Below are positions 3,509 through 14,678 of a stretch of DNA of 28,786 nt, in pieces. Both the position numbers and the translations under genes were made by a program. Source of the DNA: a virus; the IMG/VR virus record IMGVR_UViG_3300020435_000074, positions 1 through 28,786 of that record; one strand, 5' to 3'. Under the pieces are notes generated by a model. It was not told where the DNA came from. It worked only from the letters and a program-made list of their open reading frames with translations, and made no database searches. Positions within the stretch are counted from its first letter, which is position 1; each line of letters begins with the position of its first letter.

Positions 3509-3787
3509 TTATGCATCTCCTCCGTCATAAGTTCCCTGTGTTACAAAGACTACATCATCTGAGTCTCCACCATCAAAATATACATCCCTATTATAATCTC
3601 CCATATCGACCGTTGGTGTAAATGAATCAGCACCTGAAGCTAAAGTAATGATAGCTCCTGCCGCGTTCTTAGAGTATAGTTTGATGTCAGCTGTATTTAA
3701 TGCTAACTCGCCTTGTTGAAGATCCCCAGCTGATGGTTCTTTACCTGCAACAGAGGACTGTTTGATTTTTACTACAGTACCAGCCAT
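3509..3787 (-). CDS. Small fibre-adaptor-like virion protein (92 aa)
   Basis: A 92-aa protein containing VVKIKQSSVAGKEP and GELALNTADIKLYSKNAAG, followed by a short acidic tail with FDGGDSDDVVFV. The GELALNT...KLY pattern is the kind of segment that forms the N-terminus of larger phage fibres, including the 822-aa gene just downstream and the 682-aa gene at 10283. Here it stands almost alone, so the protein could be a fibre-attachment or collar-like adaptor. It is preceded by two late promoter cores (3830-3837 and 3867-3874) and is directly adjacent to the 822-aa gene (TAA then ATG), so the two are probably co-translated. The specific function is unproven. Confidence 0.7.
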   Translation of the reverse strand: MAGTVVKIKQSSVAGKEPSAGDLQQGELALNTADIKLYSKNAAGAIITLASGADSFTPTVDMGDYNRDVYFDGGDSDDVVFVTQGTYDGGDA

Positions 3788-3829: not shown

Positions 3830-3837
3830 TATTTATA
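3830..3837 (-). promoter_or_regulatory. T4-type late promoter core TATAAATA (proximal)
   Basis: Exact TATAAATA in the 82-base gap before the 92-aa gene. The predicted transcript start near 3824 leaves a leader of about 37 nt, with AGGG before the ATG at 3787. It probably drives the 92-aa and 822-aa genes. Confidence 0.7.
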
Positions 3838-3866: not shown

Positions 3867-3874
3867 TATTTATA
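3867..3874 (-). promoter_or_regulatory. T4-type late promoter core TATAAATA (distal)
   Basis: Second exact TATAAATA, 37 bases upstream of the one at 3830-3837, overlapping the stop codon of the glycosyltransferase gene (3870-3872). It separates the enzyme cassette from the fibre genes downstream. Confidence 0.6.
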
Positions 3875-4544
3875 CTTTATGTGGTCCATTCAACAAACAA
3901 ATTGTAGCATCAGGTAAATAATATGGTTCGTCTGGCGGATTATGCCATGAGTTTTCTTCATATCCGAAGTATTTTGAATATATTATTCCTTGCTCCCAAT
4001 AGTTTTTTGGTTTAAATCCTTCACAATATATAAATCCATCTATTCCAGGATAGGCCAACATATAATCTTCAGGTGAAATCATAAAGTGTTCCCATATATG
4101 ATGGTTCTCATCATGATGAAATATCATAACACTTGAGTTTATATCATGGTCTCTAATAGTTCTACCCTCAAATATCCAATCATGTCTTAATGCTTTTATA
4201 GGTTTCCAATAGCATTTAACCATTGTAAATTCATTAGCATCCATATATAAATCATCTAACCTATGTTGTATTATAATATCTAGGTCTAGGTATAACCATT
4301 TACCTGCAGGTAATACACCTTCTTTAAACATAGCTAGCTTATTCCAAACCCCGTCAAGACCATAGTCTTTAAGAGGTAACCACTTTATATTATAATTTAA
4401 TCCTATAGAATCTTCTGTATAACAATAGAAATTAATTGAATCTTCATGTTCTCCCCACATTAACTTATTAATTATACTATCATATAATTCATTTACATCC
4501 TCGCATGAATATTTGTCGCCCCACTTAACTGTTATTATGTTCAT
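3870..4544 (-). CDS. GT-A-type glycosyltransferase-like protein (224 aa)
   Basis: The core has the pattern of a GT-A-fold transferase: an N-terminal strand (MNIITVKWGD), the segment VWNKLAMFKEGVLPAGKWLY ending in LDLDI, where D87-L88-D89 matches a DxD metal/nucleotide-sugar motif, and a late ICLLNGPHK segment. The expected reaction is sugar transfer from a nucleotide sugar; donor and acceptor are unknown. At 224 aa it is a single domain without a membrane segment, so it is probably cytoplasmic. Its start overlaps the methyltransferase stop as ATGA (4541-4544), showing that it is the last gene of the enzyme cassette. Candidate targets are virion fibres, host surface glycans or small metabolites. 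The fold call is from motif and layout; the exact family is not certain. Confidence 0.65.
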   Translation of the reverse strand: MNIITVKWGDKYSCEDVNELYDSIINKLMWGEHEDSINFYCYTEDSIGLNYNIKWLPLKDYGLDGVWNKLAMFKEGVLPAGKWLYLDLDIIIQHRLDDLYMDANEFTMVKCYWKPIKALRHDWIFEGRTIRDHDINSSVMIFHHDENHHIWEHFMISPEDYMLAYPGIDGFIYCEGFKPKNYWEQGIIYSKYFGYEENSWHNPPDEPYYLPDATICLLNGPHKV

Positions 4545-5116
4545 TTTCTTAATAATGCCTCCGTTGAACTTACGATTGGTAATTCAGGTTTAAGATATTC
4601 AAATTTTTTATATGCAATTGCTTTTGAATCAATATCCATATTATGTTCATATGGTTTATTTCTCCAAACACCTATCCCTGTCTCTCTATCAATAATATAA
4701 AACTCTTTATTTAATTTAAGTATATCAAATATAACACGCCAACTATTACCACACTTTGGAGTTGGGTCATCTTTTGTAAATGGATATTTTGCATGTTCTT
4801 CTCCAGGTGGAAGTAAATCATGTAAGAATATATAACCATTCGGTCTTAAAAACTTCATTGAGCTTTGAAAATCTTTCCAAACTTGTTCATGTTCATGGAA
4901 GCCATCAATAAATATAATATCAAAAGCTTGTAAATTAACTTTAAAGAATTCATCACTTGTCATACGAAGGGTACCACCAGAATTTGGGTCTACTCCTACT
5001 TTACTATTAGCTTTAATCTTATCAAAGCATTCATTATAAGCACAACCTATTTCTAAATAATCTTTACGGTGTTGCCGTTGCATATAATAATTAATTAAAT
5101 CATATCTAGTTAACAT
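4541..5116 (-). CDS. Class I SAM-dependent methyltransferase (191 aa)
   Basis: Rossmann-type methyltransferase. Motif I is YLEIGCAYNECF (residues 20-31), the acidic end of strand 2 is GVDP (D43), and motif IV-like FDIIFIDGFHEHEQV spans residues 65-79, followed by a GYIFLHD strand (94-100). The FIDGxHxxxxV arrangement is characteristic of the Methyltransf_24 group, which is often found with sugar-modification and O-methyltransferase functions. It would transfer a methyl group from S-adenosylmethionine; the substrate is not evident. Its start overlaps the 441-aa gene by 11 bases, and its end overlaps the following glycosyltransferase gene by four (ATGA). The pairing with a glycosyltransferase suggests methylation of a sugar, but protein or small-molecule methylation is possible. 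Confidence 0.75.
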   Translation of the reverse strand: MLTRYDLINYYMQRQHRKDYLEIGCAYNECFDKIKANSKVGVDPNSGGTLRMTSDEFFKVNLQAFDIIFIDGFHEHEQVWKDFQSSMKFLRPNGYIFLHDLLPPGEEHAKYPFTKDDPTPKCGNSWRVIFDILKLNKEFYIIDRETGIGVWRNKPYEHNMDIDSKAIAYKKFEYLKPELPIVSSTEALLRK

Positions 5117-6431
5117 GACCTATATCAAAAAGTTTATATTCTTTAAGCATATTCATATTATCCTTATGCCATTTATTCCAAACTAGTAAAAATTTTTCTT
5201 TATCTCCACCAAATTGTTCTACCCATTCTCCAGTAAAATTATCTTGCATAGTTATAAAGATTGGATTAATTTTATCTATAAGGTCTCTATTAACTTTCCA
5301 AAAATCCCAGATACATTCTTCATCATCTAAATTTCTAGAATGTCCAGACTCAGGAACTGTTTGCCACATAATCATCATATCTCTTATATAGTCTGTTAAT
5401 AATTCTGGATATATAAACATATTTTGAGTCCAAAAAATCATAGTATTTAATGAGTCAATATCAAATTTTTCAATAGGCACTTTCCATATATCTGGTTCTC
5501 CAAGAACGTATATAGTTTTATAATATAATGGTTTACTTTCATCATTAAGAAAATCTTCACCTATATAATTTTTAATAAACTCTATTCGTTCTTTAGTTTC
5601 TTCTTCTGTATGTGGCTTATATAATTTGTCTTTATTATCTCCTTTCCATTCATTATATCCAGCGCCATATCCCCATGACCATTTATCAATTAATGCAAGT
5701 TTACGTTCTCGTGTTTTTTCCGGTGACATATATACTTTCATATTAGTCATTATCATACAATATTTTTGCCATTCATCTGGATGATGTTCAATAAAGGTTG
5801 CATTTTTAAACGCGGCCATAGCTGGACTAATTCCATGTGTTCTTATTAAGTATGGTTTATCTTGTTGTGTAAATCTATTAAGTATTTCATCTAATGGTGT
5901 AGGAATATCTTTCCATGACCCAATTAAATGTCTATTAGGCAAATGTTCTGCCCACGAATGTTCAGGATCGCCAAAACCAAACATAGAATTTGGTCTCCAT
6001 AACTTTAACCACTCTTCATGATTTTCATATAACCTATTATAAAGCATTTCAAAATTAACATCTTCAAATTTTTGAATTGGATTAAGAAATGGTTCATCAT
6101 CATTAAAATTATGAGAGCTATTACCACAAGTTAAACTATCACGTAAAAACCAATCATAAAACATCCAATCTTGCCACATTGATGTACGATTATAATCATT
6201 TTCTTTCATGAGTGGACTCATTTTATCAGAGTCAGTATAATAACTTATAGTCTCCTCACCAGCTGGATGATTATGAAAAAAATCTTTTTCAAAGGTTCTA
6301 TTATAAAAGTAATCAGTTTCATCACATAAATAATGTACTATTTTTTCTCCACCCATACCACCTCTATAAGAATAGAATACAAACTTATGTTCATTATCTT
6401 TAAACCATTGAATTAATTTATCTTTAATCAT
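5106..6431 (-). CDS. Uncharacterised 441-aa protein, possibly sulfotransferase-like
   Basis: I take the ATG at 6431 as start. The reading frame is open up to an ATG at 6488, but that start would overlap the previous gene by 65 bases and adds 19 unremarkable residues; 6431 gives an 8-base overlap. Residues 17-31 (FVFYSYRGGMGGEKI) form a strand followed by a glycine-rich loop, as in the 5'-PAPS-binding site of sulfotransferase-like phage proteins. A second strand, PYLIRTHGI, could be the matching acceptor-side segment. The rest is rich in W, N, D and E and has no family I recognise. No membrane segment. Its position between an EEP-like gene and a methyltransferase supports a modifying enzyme. 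The sulfotransferase idea is tentative; any P-loop nucleotide-binding enzyme would fit equally well. Confidence 0.6.
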   Translation of the reverse strand: MIKDKLIQWFKDNEHKFVFYSYRGGMGGEKIVHYLCDETDYFYNRTFEKDFFHNHPAGEETISYYTDSDKMSPLMKENDYNRTSMWQDWMFYDWFLRDSLTCGNSSHNFNDDEPFLNPIQKFEDVNFEMLYNRLYENHEEWLKLWRPNSMFGFGDPEHSWAEHLPNRHLIGSWKDIPTPLDEILNRFTQQDKPYLIRTHGISPAMAAFKNATFIEHHPDEWQKYCMIMTNMKVYMSPEKTRERKLALIDKWSWGYGAGYNEWKGDNKDKLYKPHTEEETKERIEFIKNYIGEDFLNDESKPLYYKTIYVLGEPDIWKVPIEKFDIDSLNTMIFWTQNMFIYPELLTDYIRDMMIMWQTVPESGHSRNLDDEECIWDFWKVNRDLIDKINPIFITMQDNFTGEWVEQFGGDKEKFLLVWNKWHKDNMNMLKEYKLFDIGHVN

Positions 6432-7059
6432 ATATTTCAAACTGTATAGGGTGATGCCCTTGTCTATCTGTATTAAAACAATCCACATTAGATATTCTAT
6501 GATTCGTTGGTGTAGTTATAATTTTTTGAAGGCTTAACCATGCTCCATTATTTTTAAGGAATGATTTGCAATGAACATGATTCCATAGATTTCTTTTATC
6601 TAAATTAAGTTTATCTGGTAAATCCTGGTCCTCATTATGAAAGTCACCAACAAGTATAGTCTTATTATCAACTAAATTCATTACTTCAATAGCTTGATTT
6701 ATATACATTTCTTCAGGCATATCTTTATCTGGATATGATATACCAGCATTAATAATTTTTAAATTATTTAAATGAAATATTTGATAGTGTTTCCCTTGCA
6801 TTGTATTTGTATTCCAATTAACATCTACAAATTGATGGGTTTCGGTATAGCCTTCTTCTTTTTTATGAATTATACAAAGGCCACGAGACCATTCTGAATG
6901 AATAGGGTCTGCATAATTCTGAATCCATTCTGTTTTATATGGAATCTTATCAACCAGTCCACGAGGACATCGTTGAATAAACATATGGTTATATTCTAAG
7001 TTTTCATAATCTAATGAATCAAAATCCCTATCGGAAAATTGATATGATATTAATTTCAT
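6424..7059 (-). CDS. Endonuclease/exonuclease/phosphatase-like protein (211 aa)
   Basis: Two blocks match the C-terminal half of the EEP superfamily. ILVGDFHNED (residues 135-144) corresponds to the usual GDFN motif. NVDCF (191-195) followed by GHHPIQF (201-207) corresponds to the D...SDHxP ending. An upstream FHLNNLKIINAGI strand (95-107) corresponds to the usual HL strand. Departures from the family are notable: H replaces N in GDFN, G-H replaces S-D before the catalytic His, and the N-terminal Asn and the metal-binding QE motif are not obvious. It could be a divergent phosphodiesterase or phosphatase, or an inactive relative. The start overlaps the previous stop as ATGA (7056-7059), so it is translationally coupled to the oxygenase gene. 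Substrate unknown. Confidence 0.6.
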   Translation of the reverse strand: MKLISYQFSDRDFDSLDYENLEYNHMFIQRCPRGLVDKIPYKTEWIQNYADPIHSEWSRGLCIIHKKEEGYTETHQFVDVNWNTNTMQGKHYQIFHLNNLKIINAGISYPDKDMPEEMYINQAIEVMNLVDNKTILVGDFHNEDQDLPDKLNLDKRNLWNHVHCKSFLKNNGAWLSLQKIITTPTNHRISNVDCFNTDRQGHHPIQFEIYD

Positions 7060-7706
7060 TCTTCCTCGATATGTTCAATTATTATATCTCTCATGGTCTT
7101 ATTTCTTGCGTAAAACGCAATTGACCATCTAGGCTCGTTGGTCATAGCACAATGGAATGTTGATTTTTTTCCTGGTCCATAATATCCAGTCTTACAACTC
7201 CAGCCTGGTCTATCACCAATTGTATTTATACTTCCTGTCTCCCAATCGCGATATCTATAAAAAGAATTTCCACCCTTACTCCAATTAAATAATAGAGTAA
7301 ATCCTGGAGCATCCCTATTATCATGCCAACCTATATAACCATCTGATGGATAATAACAAAGTAAAGCATTTTGTTGGACACCTAGTTCTCTAGAAAAGTT
7401 ATATTTAACATCATCAGCAAAAACTCTCCAAGGACCACTAACAGGTGAACCATATAGTACACCTATGTCAATACCTTTCATAATTTCAGGTGGTCCCTCA
7501 AATCTATCTTCTGAAACTTTTTTTAATATGATTTGAAGATAATCTTTTGAGGTTGCGTAGTATTTATTTAATTTTTTTTGTGGAACTTGGTCGCCTAAAT
7601 TTCTTTCTCTAATATCTAATTGTTTCATATCAAGACTATTAATAGTATCAATAAAACCATTAAGCCTATTTAATATCTCTTTATTTTTGATTAATACTTC
7701 GCGCAT
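7056..7706 (-). CDS. 2OG-Fe(II) oxygenase-like protein (216 aa)
   Basis: The C-terminal half reads as a double-stranded beta-helix oxygenase: ALLCYYPSDGYIGWHDN (residues 114-130), FTLLFNWSKGGNSFYRYRD (136-154), the distal metal ligand in STFHCA (H185), and a downstream arginine in PRWSIAFYAR (R193), the usual 2-oxoglutarate carboxylate contact. The proximal motif is H128-D129-N130, so the expected H-x-D appears as H-x-N with an acidic residue one place off. Members of this fold hydroxylate or demethylate proteins, nucleic acids or small molecules, and are frequent in T4-like marine phages. The start is supported by AAAGGA eight bases upstream, although it overlaps the preceding glycosyltransferase gene by 26 bases. 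Substrate is not predictable from sequence. Confidence 0.7.
   Translation of the reverse strand: MREVLIKNKEILNRLNGFIDTINSLDMKQLDIRERNLGDQVPQKKLNKYYATSKDYLQIILKKVSEDRFEGPPEIMKGIDIGVLYGSPVSGPWRVFADDVKYNFSRELGVQQNALLCYYPSDGYIGWHDNRDAPGFTLLFNWSKGGNSFYRYRDWETGSINTIGDRPGWSCKTGYYGPGKKSTFHCAMTNEPRWSIAFYARNKTMRDIIIEHIEEE
7223..7230 (-). promoter_or_regulatory. Possible internal late promoter core TATAAATA
   Basis: Exact TATAAATA inside the oxygenase gene, about 160 bases before the EEP-like gene. It could boost the downstream enzymes or be chance in AT-rich coding DNA. Confidence 0.25.
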
Positions 7707-8409
7707 CTGCTGGGTCCTTTAGTGGTAATGTATAATGCCATACTACGATTTCGCTTTCACATTCATCTTTTTTATAAAGATATACAAAGTTAAATCGTGC
7801 ATCGTCTTTATATATACTTATATCTAAATCAGAATAGGTATTTTCAGTTAACCACCATAAAGTTAATTGGTCCCAACTAATTAATCTTTCTTTTGGTTCA
7901 ACATTAGGCCACCATTCACCAGTTCTTTGTTTACAATAATATTCCCACCAATCATTCATAAATTGAAGTATACGTGGAGTTGATTTATAACCAAAGACAC
8001 CACCATGCAATACCATTTCACCTCCAACAAACTTAGCTATCTTACCAGCGTATGGTCTTATATTAGTGAATACTAAATCAGAATCGAAATCAAACATTTT
8101 AGATACATCCTCATGTTGTATGAACATATCTGCATCTAAATATATTGTTTTATTAAATGGGGTTTTAGATAGAGCCCAGAGTTTGGCTCGTACATGGTTT
8201 GGTACATCGTGTACCATGAATAGGTTATCGCATCGATGGTCATCATCAGTCCACTCCTTATGAGCAAACAAAACGATATTAGCATTAGGCATATAGTCAA
8301 GCAATGAATCAATGAGCATATGAGCTGCTTCATAATACTCATAAAACTGACTTGCTACAATTAAAAATCCGTTAGGCTTTTGCTTTTGGTTTTTCTTCTG
8401 GTTTGGCAT
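7681..8409 (-). CDS. GT-A-type glycosyltransferase (242 aa)
   Basis: After a lysine/asparagine-rich start, residues 14-50 form the nucleotide-binding Rossmann-like beginning of a GT-A fold (GFLIVASQFYEYYEAAHMLI). RAKLWALSKTPFNKTIYLDADMF follows, with the DxD motif at D92-A93-D94, then HGGVFGYKS (135-143) and WDQLTLWW as acceptor/donor-side elements. The RAKLWAL...YLDAD layout resembles GT8-like and related nucleotide-sugar transferases. It would transfer a sugar from a nucleotide sugar using a divalent metal. The start at 8409 lies inside the preceding gene (38-base overlap) and has AGAAGA upstream. It is the first enzyme gene of the cassette. Sugar and acceptor are unknown. Confidence 0.75.
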   Translation of the reverse strand: MPNQKKNQKQKPNGFLIVASQFYEYYEAAHMLIDSLLDYMPNANIVLFAHKEWTDDDHRCDNLFMVHDVPNHVRAKLWALSKTPFNKTIYLDADMFIQHEDVSKMFDFDSDLVFTNIRPYAGKIAKFVGGEMVLHGGVFGYKSTPRILQFMNDWWEYYCKQRTGEWWPNVEPKERLISWDQLTLWWLTENTYSDLDISIYKDDARFNFVYLYKKDECESEIVVWHYTLPLKDPADARSINQK

Positions 8410-8830
8410 TTTCTTCTAAGATAATAGCTGCAGAATACGCCATGATTTCTACCATGTTTGTTGCTTTACGTACTTTAGATTTAAGTGCTCTATTTTTAGA
8501 AGTTTTAATTTCTGGTATTTCAAATGCATCAACTTTAGCAGCAAATAAAGCTTCATTCTTTCCTTTATCTATAGCTGCTTTTTCTTCAGCTATTCGAACT
8601 GCTTGATTAGCATGATGTTCATCAGCTTTCTTTTTAGTTATTAAGTTAATTTCATTATGAGTGAAATTATTAAATACTTCTTTCCAATCAGGATTATCTT
8701 TTTCACCTTTTGGAGTATTACCTATTGATACAGTCTGTGATGTACCATCTGGATAGACGAAGTCTGCTACAATAAGGTTTTTGGTGGAGTCCGCGTAATA
8801 CGGGTTTCGAATTTCTCTATCTTGCGCCAT
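8372..8830 (-). CDS. Uncharacterised lysine-rich protein (152 aa)
   Basis: Function not recognised. The N-terminal part (residues 1-60) is beta-rich with FVYPDGTSQTVSI and DNPDWKEVFNNF. The middle is a highly charged helix with KKKADEHHANQAVRIAEEKA. The end is helical and finishes in a low-complexity tail (EEKPKAKA). There is no signal peptide or membrane segment. It has its own late promoter core at 8866-8873 and a good ribosome site (GAGGAA about eight bases before the ATG). It lies at the boundary between fibre genes and the enzyme cassette, and its 3' end overlaps the first glycosyltransferase gene by 38 bases, so the two are likely co-expressed. A fibre assembly or chaperone role would fit position and charge, but the sequence does not show it. 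Confidence 0.7.
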   Translation of the reverse strand: MAQDREIRNPYYADSTKNLIVADFVYPDGTSQTVSIGNTPKGEKDNPDWKEVFNNFTHNEINLITKKKADEHHANQAVRIAEEKAAIDKGKNEALFAAKVDAFEIPEIKTSKNRALKSKVRKATNMVEIMAYSAAIILEENAKPEEKPKAKA

Positions 8831-8865: not shown

Positions 8866-8873
8866 TATTTATA
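8866..8873 (-). promoter_or_regulatory. T4-type late promoter core TATAAATA
   Basis: Exact TATAAATA placed directly after the stop of the 127-aa gene. The predicted transcript start near 8860 gives a leader of about 30 nt carrying GAGGAA before the ATG at 8830. It is the likely promoter for the 152-aa gene and the enzyme cassette that overlaps it. Confidence 0.7.
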
Positions 8874-8874
8874 C

Positions 8875-9258
8875 CTATGCTGGGTCGTACCAATCTTGAG
8901 CATGTGCTGCTCCAGTATCTGCGTTAATATCTTTAGTTACACTACTCCATCCACCAGTTTCTAGACCTGTTACATCATCCCAACCATTAGCATCAATGTC
9001 AGCTCTATATTTAGCTTCAGTCCATGTACGAACAAGATTATAACCATTGCCGGCAGTACCTGCAGAAACTTCTGAACCATTAGAAGCTAATACTTTTGTT
9101 TCAGTAAAATCAGTTTGAGCACCAACCGCAGAGTCATGATCTGCTAGAGTTGTTTCGGCTCCACCTATATCAGCTAAGTGTTGTTCAAGCGCTTCTTGTA
9201 ATGTGCTAAATACTGAACCTGATTTGGTCCATTCAGTAGTTACGATATGATCTGCCAT
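8875..9258 (-). CDS. Small virion or fibre-associated protein (127 aa)
   Basis: No family recognised. Residues 1-60 include a predicted helix (FSTLQEALEQHLADIGGAETTLADHD); the rest is glycine- and tryptophan-rich with LVRTWTEAKYRADIDANGWDDV and ends in AQDWYDPA. The start lies one base after the stop of the 317-aa gene (TAATATG), so the two are coupled. Composition rich in A, T, D and G, with few Lys and no Cys, matches the neighbouring fibre-like proteins. It may be a companion or cap of the 317-aa repeat protein. Assignment rests only on composition and position. Confidence 0.65.
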   Translation of the reverse strand: MADHIVTTEWTKSGSVFSTLQEALEQHLADIGGAETTLADHDSAVGAQTDFTETKVLASNGSEVSAGTAGNGYNLVRTWTEAKYRADIDANGWDDVTGLETGGWSSVTKDINADTGAAHAQDWYDPA

Positions 9259-9259
9259 A

Positions 9260-10213
9260 TTATGCTGTCCTTAACCAAAGCTTTAATGTTGATACAGTAT
9301 CTACTGCAGCCATAATAGTAGCACCAGTATATGTACCAGTATAATATCCAGTATAGTTTCCTGTATAGTTACCAGTATATGGACCTACTTGACGACCAGA
9401 ATAGTATGTTGAGTAGTAGCCTGTATATGTTCCTGAATATACACCAGTATATGGACCAGAATAATCTTGGTCTGTTCGTTGTTTTCTTGTATCAGAGAAA
9501 GCATCTCCAACTGTTTGCCATGTTCCTGAACCAGGAGCTGCTGCTTGTAATACATACTTACCAATACCAGTGTCGACGATAGATTCTTGATACATTTCTA
9601 CTAAATCATTAATTTCAGCATCAGACATTTCTTTTAATTGATTTGAATTCCATTTAATAGGTCGTGTTGCAGTTGTATTAGAACCAGTTGTTCTTTTCCA
9701 AAGTTGAGTACTATTAGCAACAGTATCTACAGCCAGTTTATTATTAATTGTAGCAATAGAAGTCCATGTTCCTGTTTCAGGAGCTGCTACTTGTAATACA
9801 TATGAACCTACACCACCTGCAGCAATTTTAATATTGATTCTATCTACGATATCAGCTCTGCATTCAGCATCTGTCATTTCAATAAGACCATCATAAGAAC
9901 CTGAATCATATTTAACCGCAAATGGTCTAGCTGTTGGAGACGGAGTTACGTCTGTTAAGTTTTGTCTAAAGACATAGTTGTCTGTATGAATGGTTGTATT
10001 AGCAGGGTGAGTTCCCTGTGCTTGGTCTCGTCTTGTGTCTGCGAATGTACCGATGTCTGTCCAACCTGCTTCAGCATTCATTGCGAGGTGGCCAGTATTA
10101 TCACTAGTCATTCCTGAGAAATGGTCTAGAATTAAATCTACGTTATCATCGATCTCAGCGGCGCTCATTTCTTTTAAGCTTGCTGAACCATTCCACTTAA
10201 TTGGTTTTGGCAT
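9260..10213 (-). CDS. Modular virion protein with xY(T/S)G tetrapeptide array (317 aa)
   Basis: The protein has three related modules. Residues 3-64 hold KPIKWN, LKEMSAAEI and WTDIGTFADTRRD. Residues 96-153 hold RPFAVKY, IEMTDAECRADIVDRI and GVGSYVLQVAAPETGTWTSI. Residues 184-246 hold RPIKWN, LKEMSDAEI, GIGKYVLQAAAPGSGTW and DAFSDTRKQR. They are followed by a 48-residue tyrosine/glycine-rich array (250-297), described separately, and a short C-terminus ending LWLRTA. The start is backed by AGGAGA upstream. Module repetition and low-complexity repeats suggest an extracellular virion appendage. No catalytic motif is seen. The enzyme cassette begins two genes downstream. Confidence 0.7.
   Translation of the reverse strand: MPKPIKWNGSASLKEMSAAEIDDNVDLILDHFSGMTSDNTGHLAMNAEAGWTDIGTFADTRRDQAQGTHPANTTIHTDNYVFRQNLTDVTPSPTARPFAVKYDSGSYDGLIEMTDAECRADIVDRINIKIAAGGVGSYVLQVAAPETGTWTSIATINNKLAVDTVANSTQLWKRTTGSNTTATRPIKWNSNQLKEMSDAEINDLVEMYQESIVDTGIGKYVLQAAAPGSGTWQTVGDAFSDTRKQRTDQDYSGPYTGVYSGTYTGYYSTYYSGRQVGPYTGNYTGNYTGYYTGTYTGATIMAAVDTVSTLKLWLRTA
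9323..9466 (-). repeat. Twelve-unit tetrapeptide array xY(T/S)G
   Basis: Residues 250-297 of the 317-aa protein divide into twelve tetrads: DYSG, PYTG, VYSG, TYTG, YYST, YYSG, RQVG, PYTG, NYTG, NYTG, YYTG, TYTG. Ten of the twelve match xY(T/S)G exactly. At DNA level this is a 12-base minisatellite of 144 bases. The regular Tyr and Thr/Ser spacing would display many hydroxyl groups along an extended chain. Confidence 0.9.
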
Positions 10214-14226: not shown

Positions 14227-14421
14227 TTATCTCTCTATTAATTGTTTTAACATATCTTTAATTTCTGATACATCTTGTTCTACTTTATCTAATCTTTCTG
14301 CATCGGCTTTAATTTTTGCTCGATTAGCAGAATATTCTTGTCCACCACTTGCCATATTTATAATAGCGCCTGAACTTGTGTCTCTTACTAAACCTGTATG
14401 TCCTTTAACTGGTATATGCAT
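14227..14421 (-). CDS. Small coiled-coil protein (64 aa)
   Basis: The N-terminal 25 residues are HIPVKGHTGLVRDTSSGAII and the following few; the remainder is a charged helix with heptad character (LDKVEQDVSEIKDMLKQLIER). I do not know a function. The VxGHxxLVRDxxSGAIIN beginning is a compact motif that looks like a binding peptide, for example a virion docking sequence, rather than an enzyme. It overlaps the 85-aa gene as TAATG and is one base from the 413-aa gene, so it is translated as part of the virion-protein series. The short length and coupling are confident; the function is open. Confidence 0.7.
   Translation of the reverse strand: MHIPVKGHTGLVRDTSSGAIINMASGGQEYSANRAKIKADAERLDKVEQDVSEIKDMLKQLIER
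14355..14362 (-). promoter_or_regulatory. Possible internal late promoter core TATAAATA
   Basis: Exact TATAAATA inside the 64-aa gene, about 130 bases before the ATG of the 413-aa gene. It could supply extra transcripts of the fibre block, or be chance. Confidence 0.3.
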
Positions 14422-14678
14422 TAATAACTATATGTCCCATCACTACTAGAAGAATTTAAAAGTTGATTAAATAAATCTTCGTGTTGTTCCATAATCTCCT
14501 CATCTACATTTAACATATCATCCATTTGGTCTTGCATTTTTTCAACTTGTCTTTCTAATTTATCAACCTTATCATCTATTACTGCTTGTGTAGTACTTAA
14601 ACTAAATGTCTGTGTCATTGTCCAACCACCCAAAGCTATGAGCAATCCAAGAAGTAACATAACAATTTGGTCTTTCAT
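14421..14678 (-). CDS. Small membrane-anchored or exported coiled-coil protein (85 aa)
   Basis: Residues 5-25 (IVMLLLGLLIALGGWTMTQTF) form one hydrophobic helix after a short start containing Lys, either a membrane anchor or an uncleaved signal. Residues 33-60 form an acidic coiled coil (DDKVDKLERQVEKMQDQMDD), and the tail is NSSSSDGTYSY. The layout, short cytoplasmic end, one membrane helix, periplasmic coiled coil, resembles inner-membrane spanin-like or other lysis/injection accessory proteins. Nothing confirms that, and no partner o-spanin is visible. It overlaps the 1658-aa gene as TAATG and the next 64-aa coiled-coil gene the same way, so the two small proteins may form a pair. Confidence 0.7.
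   Translation of the reverse strand: MKDQIVMLLLGLLIALGGWTMTQTFSLSTTQAVIDDKVDKLERQVEKMQDQMDDMLNVDEEIMEQHEDLFNQLLNSSSSDGTYSY

Follow-up and report, generated by a model that had tools for sequence, protein, structure and literature searches.

The window examined here is the whole of IMG/VR record IMGVR_UViG_3300020435_000074, a stretch of 28,786 nt (28.8 kb) whose genes lie almost wholly on the minus strand, those of baseplate type to the right and the fibre genes to the left. It represents part of the genome of an uncultured, T4-like phage of the Kyanoviridae type, the baseplate genes being followed downstream by the fibre region: a 1658-aa DUF4815 protein belongs to the baseplate region, the fibres and glycosyltransferases (GTs) follow downstream of it, and gp14 falls outside the window. 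The nearest annotated genome, Phage C48C1 (Kyanoviridae), is syntenic across the baseplate and fibre block at ~25–37% protein identity. Among the fibre genes lies a block that consists of two parts (Table 1): a core module of the small protein p152, the glycosyltransferase GT1 and a protein with a 2-oxoglutarate (2OG) oxygenase fold, here called 2OG, and a variable cargo of an EEP-like protein, a 441-aa protein and an S-adenosylmethionine (SAM) methyltransferase (MT), closed by a second glycosyltransferase, GT2.

An earlier description made from the letters of this DNA (the sequence-only reading) had listed six overlapping genes, GT1 to GT2, as one translational unit. All six are present as minus-strand open reading frames (ORFs) with the ends it gave, and the coordinates bear out its overlaps of 38, 26, 4, 8, 11 and 4 bases; the start of the unit has to be moved to p152 (8830), a gene which that reading had omitted. 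For the 441-aa protein, alignment to relatives backs the ATG at 6431, the longest ORF starting at 6488.

Table 1. Features of the fibre block in the window, in order of position
Feature	Position	Strand	Remarks
Small tail-fibre protein	3509..3787	-	downstream of the cassette; phrog_1699, 1.1e-8
Late promoter core TATAAATA	3867..3874	-	overlaps the stop codon of GT2; would serve the fibre genes that follow; further copy at 3830-3837
GT2, second GT-A-type glycosyltransferase	3870..4544	-	end of cargo; LDLD motif
MT, class I SAM methyltransferase	4541..5116	-	cargo; PF13578
441-aa protein	5106..6431	-	cargo; P-loop-like FYSYRGGMGGEKI and YLIRTHGI motifs; sulfotransferase-like, weak
EEP-like protein	6424..7059	-	cargo; in the window and contig IMGVR_UViG_3300013113_000134 only
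2OG, 2OG-oxygenase-fold protein	7056..7706	-	core module; H128-x-N130 ... H185 ... R193
GT1, GT8-like GT-A-type glycosyltransferase	7681..8409	-	core module; DxD at residues 92-94
p152	8372..8830	-	core module; small, conserved across relatives
T4-type late promoter core TATAAATA	8866..8873	-	36 nt upstream of p152 start codon
127-aa fibre-region protein	8875..9258	-	closest relatives only
Repeat fibre protein, 317 aa	9260..10213	-	proposed substrate; aromatic tetrapeptide repeats YSGPYTGVYSGTYTGYYS...YTGA

The p152-GT1-2OG module is linked near-invariantly to one type of fibre, the repeat fibre, which carries the tetrapeptide [YF]-[TVAS]-[GR]-[NDTS] at spacings of 4, 8 and 12, repeated roughly ten to 200 times. 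In the window the repeats take up residues 251–297 of the 317-aa protein (nt 9323–9463), and homologs include the 10 kb fibre gene of C48C1 and many IMG/VR loci. Scans with the 2OG and GT1 alignments yielded 80 loci each, and nearly all of the ~56 distinct GT1 loci share with C48C1 the gene order repeat fibre, p152, GT1, 2OG. As an independent test, IMG/VR was scanned for DNA encoding (YTGx)4, a search blind to GT1 and 2OG. It returned 53 distinct loci, 20 of which end too soon to be judged; in all those that extend downstream by 2.2 kb or more, p152, GT1 and 2OG follow directly downstream on the same strand (33/33). The scan found no repeat-fibre genomes without GT1/2OG, and none of the six out-of-frame matches to the pattern was accompanied by any of p152, GT1 or 2OG. 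Among GenBank phages the GT1-2OG module occurs in one of 50,697 records, that of C48C1, where it is annotated as hypothetical.

The same association is seen from the side of p152. Repeat fibre and GT1+2OG were jointly present at 109 distinct p152 loci and jointly absent at six, with eight exceptions (Fisher value 5.6e-6, uncorrected for common descent), and proteins in the linkage set have diverged to as low as ~25–40% identity. Six of the exceptions have GT1 and 2OG with apparently no fibre; in most such cases the repeats fell under the count cut-off, lay at least one gene upstream or were in a contig-edge ORF that had been missed. The other two, L013 and L375 (PBDY01000018.1), have two copies of the repeat fibre: GT1 follows the first, and 2OG, within a p152-2OG-GT2 run, follows the second. 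With GT1 and 2OG tracking the repeat fibre in more than 100 distinct relatives, the sequence-only proposal of a late, fibre-linked decoration of the virion gains support. At four loci (L189, L220, L232, L240) a p152 homolog accompanies a different glycosyltransferase, and GT1, 2OG and the repeat fibre are all absent; these loci may hold an equivalent module that serves some other kind of fibre.

The core also stands in a late-promoter context. Both T4-type late promoter cores named by the sequence-only reading are present, as is the additional copy listed in Table 1. TATAAATA occurs 12 times in the whole window against 6.6 expected, a number reached in 2 of 100 shuffles, and ten of the copies are on the coding strand. 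Across relatives, 17 of 131 distinct loci have it within 120 nt upstream of p152, compared with 2.8 expected from shuffles, all 17 copies lying 20–50 nt from the start, and it precedes GT1 at none of 135 loci. A promoter ahead of p152 and never ahead of GT1 fits one late unit. The late expression that had been predicted for the block is thus likely to hold for the p152-GT1-2OG unit, judging by the promoter core that precedes it.

The enzymatic assignments differ in firmness. MT is a solid call (PF13578, 4.8e-11, over the cut-off), and both glycosyltransferases are GT-A-like, with DxD or DLD motifs and weak family matches. GT1 matches PF01501 at E 5.8e-4 (19.9 bits, below the cut-off of 24.3), its D92 and D94 are invariant in 13 diverse members, and the main coherent matches of its profile in the PDB, though weak (E 0.1–0.8; 0.14–0.8 for glycogenin-1), are glycogenin chains. 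GT2, with its DLD motif, matches phrog_1962 'glycosyltransferase' (4.2e-7), and a PDB profile search with it gave nothing convincing. Family searches with p152 gave no informative match; it is a possible adaptor or fibre chaperone. Membrane-like segments are absent from every cassette protein (max KD19 1.1), which makes these proteins look cytosolic.

For 2OG, the assignment as a 2OG-Fe(II) oxygenase-like protein is weak by sequence, with a family match of 0.0046 and nothing convincing in a PDB profile search, and is backed by the predicted fold. Its AlphaFold model (pLDDT 94.4, pTM 0.90) has the double-stranded beta-helix (cupin-like) fold and matches ALKBH2, P4H and PHD2 in Foldseek (E ~1e-4 to 3e-5). 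The top structural matches (Z ~10–11) are PHD2, PiuC and P4H-type enzymes, the nearest solved folds include prolyl hydroxylases such as the P. putida P4H with its EF-Tu complex, and AlkB-type oxygenases are matched as well. In place of the HxD/E of the metal triad HxD/E...H, every one of the 155 sequences aligned shows HxN (H128 and N130 both 100%). In the same alignment the distal H185 and R193, eight residues further on and the candidate arginine for the 2OG C5-carboxylate, are each 99.4% conserved, and D165 is invariant. We rejected a decayed pseudo-enzyme as the simplest reading of HxN, given that all five of these positions (H, N, H, R and D165) show little or no variation. In C48C1, tblastn matched the oxygenase at three places, and a second HxN paralog (CDS0046, L002:16001-16675) sits next to a NifU-like gene, away from the fibre region.

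The cargo, by contrast with the constant p152-GT1-2OG, is hypervariable and fast-changing: the gene after 2OG and the cargo genes change freely between relatives. The six genes had been taken as a single co-conserved set; we reject one conserved six-gene pathway, since GT1 and 2OG alone, together with p152, are kept in relatives. Within the window's own clade the interval from 2OG to GT2 differs from genome to genome. It holds a 441-aa homolog only in L007, L086, L087 and L166, sulfotransferase-like, methyltransferase-like and radical SAM proteins and one further protein in L012, and nothing in L013. The 441-aa protein falls to 26–33% identity across genomes in which GT1, GT2 and the repeat fibre stand at 72–86% (64–86% for its neighbours taken together), and the EEP-like protein, found in one relative, to 45% where 2OG is at 83%. 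That relative's contig (Table 1) is also the only other carrier, among the fetched loci, of an 85-aa ORF at 14421-14678. MT occurs in no close relative, and more distant homologs lie near the module at a few other loci. Elsewhere, carbamoyltransferase, FkbM methyltransferase and radical SAM genes are found near it, and the cargo classes of relatives fit glycan or peptide tailoring.

Two of the cargo proteins are harder to place. Scans of IMG/VR and GenBank phages with the single 441-aa and EEP-like proteins returned no matches, nor did a plasmid scan for the former; profile searches found ten loci for the 441-aa protein and one for the EEP-like protein. The 441-aa protein has no match in Pfam, PHROGs or NCBIfam, its one match in a PDB profile search was judged to be chance, and an AlphaFold model from five sequences (pLDDT 41) was unusable for fold search. 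The guess that it is sulfotransferase-like is weakly supported, by a P-loop-like motif kept as GGxGGE among five members and by a weak profile match to the sulfotransferase-like protein of L012 (hhalign E 0.006, probability 6%). The EEP identity finds no backing beyond a GDFHN-like motif. GDFHN is present, the SDH of SDHxP is replaced by QGH/RIH, and neither Pfam, PHROGs, NCBIfam nor a PDB profile search gave a convincing match. At three loci (L368-L370) a 441-aa homolog adjoins ribonucleotide reductase-like genes outside the fibre region, and in L368 its gene overlaps one for a fusion of an RfaE-like nucleotidyltransferase with a mannose-6-phosphate isomerase domain.

We consider it probable, at roughly 60%, that the p152-GT1-2OG module serves specifically to modify the repeat fibre next to it and is made late together with the virion proteins. 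Computation shows the genes, the oxygenase fold, the near-invariant linkage, the late-promoter context and the hypervariable cargo; that the enzymes act on the fibre, by what chemistry, in which order and to what advantage is what we infer. The 2OG-fold protein would oxidise, most likely hydroxylate, residues in or near the tetrapeptide repeats, and GT1 would then attach a sugar to the fibre, either at the new hydroxyl or at the Ser, Thr or Tyr of the repeat itself, with p152 as a possible adaptor. In the window phage GT2 may extend the glycan and the cargo (MT, the sulfotransferase-like 441-aa protein and the EEP-like protein) may cap or alter it, so that swaps of cargo would vary the fibre surface between strains. 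Three points weigh against such a module. No single acceptor residue is prominent in the repeats, because aromatic residues are the most constant and Thr makes up only ~36% of position 2. Hydroxylase activity is uncertain because the carboxylate of HxD/E is missing. Finally, the linkage counts come from related phages, with shared ancestry uncorrected. As to the second point, human AspH is described as departing from the usual metal triad and as nevertheless active (PMC13168262), so that an HxN oxygenase may be active too.

The last point is the ground for an explanation by plain synteny, a late block co-inherited within one phage group: all linkage loci are from related T4-like phages. We hold this to be improbable, as the region is hypervariable except for the p152-GT1-2OG module, and p152 loci lacking the repeat fibre usually lack GT1 and 2OG too. 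A more serious contender, to which we give a real though minor chance, is that GT1 and 2OG are independent, 2OG acting on the fibre, another protein or a small molecule while GT1 and GT2 decorate the fibre without hydroxylation. The repeats already supply Thr, Ser and Tyr hydroxyls for direct glycosylation, L013 and L375 split the two genes behind two different repeat fibres, and HxN for HxD casts doubt on ordinary hydroxylation. On the other hand, the genes for GT1 and 2OG are adjacent, and usually overlap, in nearly all loci, which suggests one common substrate.

Other rivals name a substrate other than the fibre, the main one being modification of the host surface. It is unlikely, in our view, that the glycosyltransferases and their partners modify the lipopolysaccharide (LPS) O-chain or surface of the host and thereby exclude superinfecting phages. 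Some cargo classes of other loci (carbamoyltransferase, FkbM methyltransferase) are typical of surface polysaccharides, and a host-surface role has been proposed for the glycosyltransferases of the pelagimyophage host recognition cluster (excerpted text of PMC7029224). Host LPS as the target leaves unexplained, however, both the late promoter and the fact that p152-GT1-2OG is locked to a single type of fibre wherever the loci allow a test, and it sits badly with cassette proteins without a membrane segment. Pairs of an oxygenase and a glycosyltransferase that hypermodify DNA exist in phages, and the Foldseek matches of the 2OG model include oxygenases of AlkB type, which act on nucleic acids. 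Yet a pair of this kind, with TET/JBP-like base oxidation followed by glycosylation, is at odds with the location in a fibre block, the late promoter, the strict linkage to the repeat fibre and the best structural matches of 2OG, which are PHD2, PiuC and P4H-type enzymes; we regard it as highly improbable.

Marine T4-like phages often carry genes for 2OG-Fe(II) oxygenases and for glycosyltransferases that lack an explanation; so far the oxygenases have been read as serving DNA repair or nitrogen signalling (PMC3037559) and the glycosyltransferases as altering host LPS (PMC7029224). The near-invariant link to one repeat-fibre type offers a specific substrate that can be put to the test. Should the fibres prove to be glycosylated, the binding of hosts and further interactions of the virion surface would depend on a phage-made glycan, one that would be re-tailored by exchange of cargo genes. 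The invariant HxN motif of the oxygenase family is a question of enzymology. In the open-licence literature we found nothing relevant on hydroxylation or glycosylation of fibres with tetrapeptide repeats, or on C48C1, and an earlier description elsewhere is possible.

The closest known arrangement is in C48C1 itself (OQ984149), where CDS0201-0205 encode, in the same order, the repeat-containing 10 kb fibre, p152, GT1, 2OG and a fibre assembly gene, all but 0205 annotated as hypothetical; unlike the window, C48C1 has no EEP-like, 441-aa, MT or GT2 gene behind 2OG. Pelagimyophages carry fibres, GT8 glycosyltransferases and radical-SAM cassettes in a hypervariable region between VrlC and gp14, as the excerpted text of PMC7029224 describes. 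This host recognition cluster of pelagimyophages and cyanomyophages resembles the window in being a hypervariable fibre stretch with GT8-type glycosyltransferases in T4-like marine phages; in the excerpts the glycosyltransferases are read as modifiers of host LPS, and the linkage of fibre, p152, GT1 and 2OG is not raised. Pelagibacter phage Mosig EXVC030M has, at 00183-00191, a GT2 homolog, a putative sulfotransferase, a second glycosyltransferase and two methyltransferases, a cluster that differs in adjoining ribonucleotide reductase genes, and tblastn found no GT1 or 2OG of the module in this phage. Further afield, capsid glycosylation has been suggested for mycobacteriophages (PMC11256854). 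The likeness lies in phage-encoded glycosyltransferases thought to decorate virion proteins, and the difference in the unrelated hosts. To our knowledge, neither an oxygenase partner nor a repeat fibre is known there. Mimivirus has enzymes for the hydroxylation and glucosylation of collagen, L230 among them. The mimivirus collagen enzymes (PMC9546862), likened here by description, share with the proposed module a viral 2OG hydroxylation and glycosylation of a repetitive virus-encoded structural protein, and differ in the Gly-X-Y collagen repeat, in the glycosyltransferase family and in belonging to a eukaryotic virus. Phage enzymes that glycosylate virions are already known, and so is a viral repeat protein whose glycosylation is linked to hydroxylation; beside them we set, as a tentative proposal, a hydroxylation-dependent O-glycosylation via an HxN oxygenase, confined to one class of repeat fibre and common in uncultured marine T4-like phages, in which hypervariable capping enzymes would diversify the virion surface.

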